A DNA stretch of 64,000 nt from Cutibacterium modestum. GTDB lineage: Bacteria > Actinomycetota > Actinomycetes > Propionibacteriales > Propionibacteriaceae. The translations under genes were made by a program, and so were the position numbers. The stretch spans positions 434,001-498,000 of the forward strand of contig NZ_BJEN01000003.1 in the NCBI RefSeq assembly GCF_008326345.1, in the 5' to 3' direction. Under the pieces are notes generated by a model. It searched no databases. It was not told the DNA's origin and worked only from the letters and a program-made list of their open reading frames with translations. This document shows, one piece after another, positions 3,743 to 5,991 of the stretch. Position 1 is the first letter of the stretch. Each line of letters opens with the position of its first letter.

Positions 3743-4015
3743 ATGAGCGAGAACACCGCTGAGCGGACGACCCGCCGCAAGGTCCGTGAGGGACTCGTCG
3801 TGTCCGATAAAATGAACAAGACGATTACCGTCCTCGTCGAGGATCGTGTCAAGCACCCGCTGTATGGCAAGGTCATGAAGAAGTCGGTGCGTCTGAAGGC
3901 GCACGATGAGAATAACGAGGCCGGCATGGGCGATCGCGTGCGGATCATGGAGACCCGCCCGCTGTCTGCCACCAAGCGCTGGCGCCTCGTCGAGATCATC
4001 GAGAAGGCTAAGTGA
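3743..4015 (+). CDS. rpsQ: 30S ribosomal protein S17
   Basis: A 90-residue S17, an early 16S-binding OB-fold protein. Conserved blocks are [30 protein letters not shown] and [24 protein letters not shown]. It is the last gene of the S10 segment. A strong stem-loop follows 33 bases downstream and the next ribosomal gene (rplN) is 1.6 kb away, so the usual S17-L14 junction is broken here. Confidence 0.97.
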
Positions 4016-4047
4016 TGCATTGGTGAGCTAATCACCACGTTGTACTG

Positions 4048-4080
4048 CAAGGCGACCCATCCGAAAGGAGGGTCGCCTTG
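4048..4080 (+). terminator. Terminator closing the S10 operon
   Basis: A perfect 11-bp inverted repeat (CAAGGCGACCC at 4048-4058, GGGTCGCCTTG at 4070-4080) with an 11-base loop lies directly after rpsQ and is followed by T-rich TTGTGGTTG. It is well placed to stop transcription before the non-ribosomal insert. The T-tract is weak, so termination may be partial. Confidence 0.7.
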
Positions 4081-4268
4081 TTGTGGTTGGGAGATGGAGT
4101 GGGGGAGCGAAATGCCTTGGTTTTCGTTCCGTGCTTAAGATGCGGTGGACACTATATCTTGGTTGTGATTATTTGCAGCTTCGATTTGCCCAGGACGCGG
4201 CTTGATGCCGGTGCTATTCTCACGATTTGGCTGCACATCTCAGGGCCCAAGGAGAAGCAACCTGCGGC

Positions 4269-5000
4269 GTGTCATCATGTGCACCACATATGAAGTGTAA
4301 TGCGTGATGCGCACATTGTTGCGCGTCTTCGCACTCGAAGGATGAACGACAACTCGACGATGACGTGGTTCGAAGGCTTGTGAATGAGGCCGTCGCGCAT
4401 CCAAGCATCGATCTGGTTTCCTTTACTGGAGGGGACGCTTTTCTTCGCCGTGGGTTCATCTTGAAACTCATACGTACAGTTTCGTCGGCTGGCAAACGTA
4501 CGACGCTCGTTTTGAACGGATTCTGAGGCGTGAACCCGGGTGCGGCCTCCGAAGGGCCGAGCGCGCTGAAGCCGGCTGGGCTGTCATTGCTTACCCTCAG
4601 TGTGGATCAGTTTCATCTACCATATATTGATCTCGGGTGAGTCAAGAACATATTGTCTGTGGGACGCGACGTCTGTGATATTCAGATCAATCTGAATATA
4701 TGTGAATCCGATACTAATCCTGCCGAGGATATCCCTGCGGAACTGGAGGGGCTTCTTGATGGTGTTCGAGTCACCCGGTTCCAATTACCCCTAGTGGCGC
4801 TACCTGTGACATTCCGGAGTCAGAGATTCGCTACAGCGCTAAGTCCACTGACCAGCTCCGATGCCCCGGTCGGACTCTCCTCTTCTCCAGCGACGATCGA
4901 GTTTATCCGTGCTGTTCAACCGGTGTTATGAATGAGGATGCCCGCTTGGTGTGTTTGGTGCGGGAGAGTCAGACGGTGTTCCGCTTGGCTTGGTGCTAAA
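4269..5000 (+). pseudogene. Decayed radical SAM enzyme (peptide-maturase type)
   Basis: Starting at GTG 4269 (GGAGAAG about 10 bases upstream) the frame reads a short leader and then the [4Fe-4S] motif C-N-A-stop-C-A-H-C, i.e. CX3CX2C. Next come VSFTGGDAFLRR (GGE-type motif, here GGD), AGKRTTLVLNGF and LTLSVDQFHLPYI, all typical of radical SAM enzymes that act on peptides. Three in-frame TGA codons interrupt it at 4305-4307 (where Arg is expected), 4524-4526 (where Trp after NGF is expected) and 4638-4640. A one-base shift near 4790 moves to another frame, which continues CDIPESEIRYSAK, LRCPGRTLLFSSDD and RVYPCCSTGVMNED, the C-terminal Cys-rich motif of such enzymes, up to a TAA at 4997. It sits between rpsQ and rplN. 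Partner genes are not recognisable; a 31-codon ORF at 4205-4300 could be a precursor remnant, but that is speculative. Confidence 0.8.
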
Positions 5001-5370
5001 TGGAGCTGCGGTGGTGGGTGAGTTTGACCAGGTTGACTTGGATGAGGGTGATGTTGGATTTGACGGTGAGCTTGATTTCAGCGAGTTTGAGACCAGCGAG
5101 GGCCGCACCTGGCGGATCGCTGGCTGCCGGGACCTTCAAGTTTGCCCACCGCTTCCGCATCTCGCCGACTGCGAACCAGCACGACGCGACTGCCGCGGTC
5201 GAGCCAGCGCAACCATCCCCACCGTTGAGACTGAGAAAATCCTGCCAAATATGTGACGCGGGACACACTTGGCCACCTGCGAGGCGCGGATTGTCTTACG
5301 CTAAGCCGACTTCAACTCATCCACCCACCATGGATCAACGCGGGCATTTTTGACGAGTCAACGCGATGAC
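5001..5370 (+). other. Remnant DNA between the radical SAM pseudogene and the rplN promoter
   Basis: No intact gene is supported. The frame that ends the radical SAM remnant continues after its TAA and contains a KSCQICD segment near 5233-5253, which could be the last Cys pair of the same enzyme (low confidence). A 12-base inverted repeat TTGAC-GA-GTCAA lies at 5350-5361. Short ORFs on both strands show no family I recognise. Confidence 0.35.
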
Positions 5371-5399
5371 TGGCAATCCGTCGAATCGAGAGTTAGAAT
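5371..5399 (+). promoter_or_regulatory. Candidate promoter and long leader for the rplN (spc) operon
   Basis: A TAGAAT -10 hexamer at 5394-5399 with a weak TGGCAA -35 at 5371-5376 and a 17-base spacer lies about 225 bases before rplN. The leader in between (about 5406-5622) is GC-rich and can form hairpins such as CCACC/GGTGG. A promoter here is expected because the S10 operon is terminated upstream. The hexamers are only a moderate match. Confidence 0.35.
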
Positions 5400-5622
5400 A
5401 CTCAAGTTGTCTTGCGACTGTGCCCACCTTTAAGCACTGTGCGGAGCCCCCGACACCACGGAGACGGAGGCCACCGTGCGCCGCCCGAAGGTGGCGGGAC
5501 CTCTCGCGGACGACAGCCGCGTACCCCCTGAGGTGCGGGCTGCCTTCTGGCAAAATCCAGGGGGCTCGTGTTCAACAGTCCTACCAGGCCCGGCAGGGAA
5601 CCAGTGGGACAAAGGAGAAGAC

Positions 5623-5991
5623 ATGATCCAGCAGGAGACGCGACTCAAGGTCGCCGACAACACTGGTGCGAAGGAGCTCCTTTGCATCCGTGTTCTCGGT
5701 GGATCGAAACGTCGCTACGCCTACCTCGGTGACACCATCGTGTGCACCGTCAAGGATGCCATCCCCGGCGGAAACGTGAAGAAGGGCGAGGTTGTCAAGG
5801 CCGTCGTCGTTCGGACCGTCAAGTCGCACCGCCGTCCGGACGGCTCCTATATCAAATTCGACGAGAACGCTGCCGTCCTCCTCAAGGGAGACGGGGAGCC
5901 TCGTGGGACCCGTATCTTCGGCCCTATCGCCCGCGAGCTGCGTGACAAGAAGTTCATGCGCATCGTCTCGCTCGCCCCGGAGGTGATCTGA
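5623..5991 (+). CDS. rplN: 50S ribosomal protein L14
   Basis: A 122-residue L14, which contacts 16S rRNA at the subunit interface. It starts at ATG 5623 ([17 protein letters not shown]) behind AAAGGAG; longer in-frame openings upstream are in leader DNA. Conserved motifs are [28 protein letters not shown] and [11 protein letters not shown]. It heads the spc-type block, and its stop is followed directly by the GTG of rplX. Confidence 0.98.

Follow-up and report, generated by a model that had tools for sequence, protein, structure and literature searches.

In Cutibacterium modestum, the spacer between the ribosomal protein genes rpsQ and rplN carries the remnant of a radical SAM gene whose origin, on the strength of its profile matches, lies in the YydG/EpeE family (NCBIfam TIGR04078), i.e., among the epipeptide epimerases, which invert amino acids of a small antibacterial peptide. 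Within the window (i.e., the whole 64,000-nucleotide stretch analysed, positions 434,001 to 498,000 of contig NZ_BJEN01000003.1), this remnant lies on the forward strand from 4263 to about 4944 and shows stop codons, changes of frame, and a lost 3' end (Table 1). In keeping with the genus, the L2 protein of the window is matched along its full length by PDB 8crx, the Cutibacterium acnes ribosome, with 612.8 bits (runner-up, 503.7). We consider it highly probable that a foreign epipeptide-type cluster entered the lineage, landed in the spacer between the S10 and spc operons, and decayed there to a dead epimerase remnant. As far as can be told, what is left is a relic without present function. 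Beside it, directly upstream of rplN, we found a structured leader RNA that is a candidate for a new ribosomal-protein leader.

Table 1. Features between rpsQ and rplN and the two flanking genes (window coordinates).
Feature	Position	Strand	Basis or remark
rpsQ (S17), last gene of the S10 operon	3743..4015	+	ORF
Terminator-like inverted repeat 3' of rpsQ	4049..4079	+	read directly
Genus spacer 5' of the insert	4080..4148	.	4085-4148 aligns to G001 spacer
Probable upstream flank of the imported gene, perhaps precursor 3' end (weak)	4149..4262	+	DNA alignment
YydG/EpeE-type radical SAM epimerase remnant	4263..4944	+	three TGA stops, at least two frame changes, 3' third gone
Genus spacer resumed	4945..5010	.	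aligns to G005 spacer
IS3-family transposase remnant, internal deletion	5069..5265	+	DNA identity to Microbacterium plasmid
Sigma-70-like promoter candidate, spc operon	5370..5399	+	1 found vs. 0.6 expected by shuffling; weak alone
Conserved structured leader RNA of rplN	5496..5619	+	models R1, R2
rplN (L14), first gene of the spc operon	5623..5991	+	

Motifs, breaks, and family of the remnant

The landmarks named in the initial annotation are all present. Frame 3 reads KCNA*CAHC(C), i.e., the CX3CX2C motif with its cysteines correctly spaced and a TGA falling within it, followed by TGGD (which includes GGD), TLVLNGF and a stop, LTLSVDQFHLPYI, and a third stop; homology in this frame fades at about 4790 and is continued in frame 2, where YPCC, the hydrogen-donor cysteine site, is kept. 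The in-frame stops, as read from the frame-3 translation, are TGA codons at 4305, 4524, and 4638, and there are at least two frame changes, one at about 4784-4796 and another, seen on DNA alignment to the closest relative, near the 5' end, at about 4280. By the same alignment clear homology ends near 4940; resemblance to genus spacer sets in at about 4936. The proposed extent of 4269 to 5000 needs adjustment at both ends: the homologous stretch runs from about 4263 to 4944, with perhaps 114 bp more upstream, and ends before 5000. Nor is the YPCC motif C-terminal, as had been stated; it sits at about residue 220 in a protein of some 315 (in two Bacillus relatives, each 319 aa long, the second Cys of the motif has number 223), and the true C-terminal CxxC of the family, which belongs to the auxiliary cluster and is found at 289/292 in those relatives (L047, L048) and at 283/286 in the Actinomyces timonensis protein (L039), is gone from the remnant, the match to TIGR04078 stopping at profile position 230 of 309. 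Broken by three stops and two or more frame changes and shorn of its 3' end, the gene should yield no functional product.

That all three in-frame stops are TGA would suit a gene kept alive by recoding, with TGA decoded as a residue and a programmed frame change. In alignment, however, the intact relatives share no one common residue at the three stop sites, so no single TGA reassignment fits; because, in addition, there are at least two frame changes, the 3' third with its C-terminal CxxC is missing, and the partner protease is absent, recoding is extremely improbable. Assembly or sequencing errors in an otherwise intact gene deserve a thought in a 2.63-Mb genome assembled as 9 contigs, but the probability is close to nil, as assembly completeness is listed as 100 and the missing 3' third gives way to sequence resembling the spacer of a sister genome.

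A decayed radical SAM peptide maturase between rpsQ and rplN had been proposed from the outset, and the matches to PF04055 and TIGR04078, together with the stops and frame changes, bear this out. When the frame-3 part was read with X at the stops, it matched TIGR04078 well above chance level, with an E value of 8.8e-38 (130.5 bits), the next family in NCBIfam giving 3.8e-09. The pieces also speak for themselves to varying degrees: the uninterrupted first piece of 72 aa matched TIGR04078 alone at 1.2e-18 and the radical SAM profile PF04055, for which a search of the translated pieces had been suggested, at 2.7e-07 (31.4 bits vs. the Pfam cut-off of 29.5), the frame-2 piece matched TIGR04078 at 2e-08 (34.0 bits), and the third frame-3 piece did so at 0.004, while the second (37 aa) produced no NCBIfam match. 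The remnant stays below the curated TIGR04078 cut-off of 300 bits and, being a fragment, is filed as descended from the family rather than as a member of it.

Its score of 130.5 bits, below the cut-off, is what might speak for descent from some other radical SAM peptide maturase (of sactipeptide or generic SPASM type) that is merely YydG-like. We regard this as very improbable because the E value of the second-best family is higher by almost 29 orders of magnitude and because three intact actinobacterial maturases (247.6, 269.0, and 283.1 bits) themselves fall short of the same cut-off, even though two of the three (L039 and P0001) adjoin epipeptide-type partners; the neighbor of P0001 is a YydF-like precursor (34.6 bits; cut-off 35). 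A Macrococcoides maturase passes the cut-off with 434.6 bits. With the YydG/EpeE profile the remnant is collinear over positions 9-230 of 309. The order of the radical SAM core and the TGG, NGF, FH, and YPCC motifs are common to the remnant and to YydG/EpeE of the Bacillus subtilis epeXEPAB (yydFGHIJ) system. Unlike that system, the Cutibacterium gene is broken, has lost its 3' third, falls below the family cut-off, and is accompanied by no partner protease and no clear precursor.

Relatives, partners, and distribution

To place the remnant, genome contigs were searched with the remnant aligned to three intact proteins, yielding 14 loci: one in Actinomyces timonensis, two each in Curtobacterium and Bifidobacterium, one in Nocardiopsis, and eight in Bacillota. 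The closest intact relative found was that of A. timonensis DSM 23838 (L039), with 51.8% identity to the N part over 170 columns (runner-up, 41.1%) and 56.0% identity to the frame-2 piece over 50 columns (next, 42.3% over 26 and 41.3% over 46). In a midpoint-rooted tree of the proteins from the 14 loci, the frame-3 part of the remnant, and L024, a very long-branch outgroup and the only one of the weaker radical SAM matches (L022, L024-L027, L030-L036) to be included, the remnant joined L039 at 98/99 and was nested in the TIGR04078 family. In wider searches, 5 of 391 genomes of the order matched TIGR04078 at 1e-12, none of them above the cut-off, and 9 of 394 genomes of the class matched the protein at 1e-8, the window's genome being counted in both cases.

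The A. timonensis locus is intact, comprising a small ORF, the maturase, a YydH/LiaK-like metalloprotease (NF058609, E 4e-40, 138 bits, below the model cut-off of 225; Pfam M50), and ABC genes, and it differs in this from the remnant. The two resemble each other in their low GC content, which is 54.8% in the A. timonensis cluster against 72.7% in its flank and 53.4% in the remnant against 60.9% across the window. The small ORF (3781-3894) encodes 37 aa from an internal ATG, or 89 aa if an upstream GTG is the start, ends DDLGWLLVSNNWVAAGW, and gave no match to the YydF model TIGR04077. In Bifidobacterium sp. B4142 (L046), a small ORF stops 81 bases before the maturase and ends DDLSYFVTQGTVLHW. 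Both ORFs lack the usual WYF core, and it is possible that they are variant epipeptides. With a probability somewhat below even, the remnant and the A. timonensis cluster may form a separate actinobacterial epipeptide branch that reached skin-type Propionibacteriaceae horizontally; since its precursor would lack the conserved WYF core, both the peptide and its target may differ from those of the Bacillus epipeptide.

The initial annotation had also supposed that related strains might still hold the intact gene; an intact relative is found in A. timonensis. In a set of 9 genus genomes, one per species and including the window's own (G000), no TIGR04078 match comparable to the remnant was found in the 8 others; the sole other match (E 2e-4) is in G005, elsewhere in that genome. 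No EpeP homologue was found in any of the 9 genomes, although the same query recovered its source genome and a 29%-identical homologue in G649. The notion of a lost RiPP-type modification system is supported. Six-frame patterns for the YydF core, which recover 12 of the 14 relative loci, detected no WYF-type or YydF-like peptide in 4016-5622. What may remain of the precursor side is 4149-4262, which aligns end to end with the precursor-to-maturase stretch of L039, weakly (12 of 500 shuffles reach the score). Homology to the precursor beginning at 4081 was considered and rejected, the upstream part of the first alignment being reached by 67 of 1000 shuffles; as 4085-4148 is far better matched by a sister spacer (0 of 500 shuffles) than by the precursor side (143 of 500), only 4149-4262 was kept as a weak precursor-side candidate.

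Popp et al. (2021) reportedly described the distribution of epipeptides in Firmicutes. Passages of two further papers likewise name epipeptide loci in Firmicutes (PMC7614699; PMC8326336), and no paper treating epipeptides together with Cutibacterium was found in the literature searched.

The S10/spc spacer as a landing site

The S10 operon ends with rpsQ. According to a portion of PMC10931766, uL14 (rplN) starts the spc operon. The remnant therefore does not lie inside a normally unbroken ribosomal operon, as had been thought, but at the S10/spc boundary, where all 9 genus genomes have a spacer (313, 384, 416, 506, 596, 619, 1607, 1733, and 2000 bp, the 1607 bases being those of the window, from the rpsQ end at 4015 to the rplN start at 5623); in E. 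coli K-12 the gap is 164 bp. The rplN-proximal segment of this spacer aligned by blastn in 8 of 8 other genus genomes and the rpsQ-proximal, terminator-bearing segment in 6 of 8. A spacer present in all 9 genomes, with segments that align, indicates that the gene string was already interrupted before the insert arrived. For the same reasons, the promoter candidate ought not to be called new, given that rplN opens the spc operon and lies behind a segment that aligns in every other genome of the set. The spacer of G003 (L015 1709-2632) holds a 307-aa ORF without a Pfam match, flanked, as judged by eye, by short direct and inverted repeats around CTGCGCCAGTTGTGTCTCACCTGCGCC, and that of G008 (L020) holds a gene of the glycine-transporter family (PF03458).

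Along the 1607 bases, the order is terminator-like repeat, spacer, radical SAM remnant, spacer, IS3 remnant, and rplN-proximal leader region. The insert is bounded by the sister spacers: it starts after about 4148, where similarity to G001 ends, and stops at about 4944, where similarity to G005 resumes. None of 500 dinucleotide shuffles reached the score of 4085-4148 against G001, and the score of 4945-5010 against G005 was reached by 0 of 200 and 0 of 300 shuffles; similarity of the latter kind was absent from the spacers of G001, G002, G003, G006, and G007. The left boundary is uncertain because the full segment 4085-4262 can be aligned to the G001 spacer as well (1 of 500 shuffles), with large gaps and with 4149-4262 contributing only 6.6 of the 54.1 score units. 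Different extra DNA thus occupies the rpsQ-rplN spacer in 3 of the 9 genus genomes (the window's, G003, and G008), and the site of the remnant can be called permissive.

How the gene arrived is suggested by its composition and its surroundings. Lower in GC than the window at large and with IS3-transposase debris close by, the remnant was probably acquired from outside and has decayed since. The debris, 5069-5265, matches two non-adjacent blocks in a region of a plasmid of Microbacterium sp. NIBRBAC000506063, with DNA identities of 77.7% (139 bases) and 79.6% (54 bases). The first block falls in an annotated IS3 family transposase CDS; the middle of that gene is gone from the window, and the window piece had no match in Pfam. 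Spacer separates the IS remnant from the maturase remnant, and the two may thus have arrived independently. A mobile element may have carried the gene in, although neither an intact element nor a target-site duplication framing the remnant was found, and a flanking direct repeat at the ends of the insert was not significant (134 of 2000 shuffles reached its score). A search of 72,556 plasmid records returned four matches, the best being the epipeptide loci of Macrococcoides and Macrococcus. An origin from a phage or virus was rejected, as there was no phage match by protein or DNA and none in two viral contig scans. An ORF on the minus strand (4996-5268) was likewise rejected as a gene: it is mostly antisense to the IS3 remnant, has no relative in 29 other genomes, and showed no Pfam or NCBIfam match at E up to 1.

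Transcription of the ribosomal genes probably does not extend to the remnant, because the latter lies between the terminator-like repeat and the rplN-proximal promoter and leader region. The repeat at 4049..4079 was not listed by a consensus terminator scan, perhaps owing to its bulge and weak T tract. The place of the remnant between this repeat and a promoter candidate, and one terminator-like site inside the remnant, might be taken to mean that it has been co-opted, for instance to insulate S10 from spc or as a small RNA between the two. We think this very improbable: the scan listed 3 terminator-like sites in the whole stretch where 1.4 (sd 1.2) would be expected, none of the other genus genomes examined has kept the remnant, and an Rfam search of the stretch gave one chance-level match, which lies outside it.

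Import followed by decay, the course of events we favor, would have proceeded as follows. Foreign DNA with an epipeptide-type RiPP cluster would have entered an ancestor of the Cutibacterium-like lineage, and the cluster would have landed in the neutral stretch that separates the S10 terminator from the spc promoter. The chemistry of the living enzyme may be envisaged by homology, the ancestor having perhaps worked like the YydG system, in which, as set out in part of PMC5682303, YydG removes a C-alpha hydrogen from a peptide residue and Cys223 returns one, resulting in epimerization. On this model, SAM and a [4Fe-4S] cluster held by CX3CX2C would have abstracted C-alpha hydrogens from residues of a short precursor peptide, the YPCC cysteine would have returned hydrogen from the other face to give D-residues, and completion and further handling of the peptide would have been left to a membrane protease and an ABC transporter. 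In sections of PMC7026026, release of the peptide is tentatively ascribed to the protease, and immunity had been postulated as the role of the ABC transporter, the primary protection in B. subtilis having been found to be LiaIH. About two thirds of the epimerase gene remains today.

A structured leader upstream of rplN

The leader comprises the 124 bases before rplN. A model built from 9 genus sequences (R1) matched 30 of 147 genomes of the order, once in each and always in the window's family, and rplN lay directly 3' of the match in 25 of 25 cases with loci (loci cover 25 of the 30, without the five weakest). In an alignment of 26 sequences, both partners vary in 16 of the 41 pairs and the share of paired cells is 92.3%, helix 2 being the weakest (78.5% paired). 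None of 500 shuffles reached any of five measures, and sliding the partners lowered pairing to 35.6-58.6%; these values are to be read knowing that the alignment was fitted to the structure, which favors pairing, and that relatedness alone can beat shuffles. A second model, R2, matched 76 of 197 genomes of the family, in 13 of 29 genera, 121 being without a match under strict filters, and in a class sample it matched only the window's genome out of 148 (0 of 147 others). The region immediately upstream, 5405-5495, forms the upstream half of the leader region; its 5' end reads TTG..TGCGACTGTGCC in all 9 genus sequences aligned, whereas G004 and G008 lack its middle stretch.

In the closing helix, the Shine-Dalgarno GGAG ahead of the start codon is paired with a CTCT-type sequence. 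As GGAG is thereby covered, a natural reading is that the leader would block ribosome binding. Rfam 15 gave no match beyond chance, with E 0.2 outside the leader and E 0.14 in the loci of ten relatives. A listing in PMC7247131 contains 20 ribosomal leader candidates, but the terms "L14" and "rplN" are absent from its main text and likewise from PMC11109978; no leader before rplN is named in passages of PMC10931766, and no report of one was found in the literature searched.

The remnant bears witness to the probable past entry of an epipeptide-type system into the Cutibacterium lineage, and A. timonensis offers an intact, divergent cluster with a variant small ORF that is open to test. The rplN leader may matter more than the remnant and makes a question about B. 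subtilis and other species beyond the E. coli type testable in the window's family.
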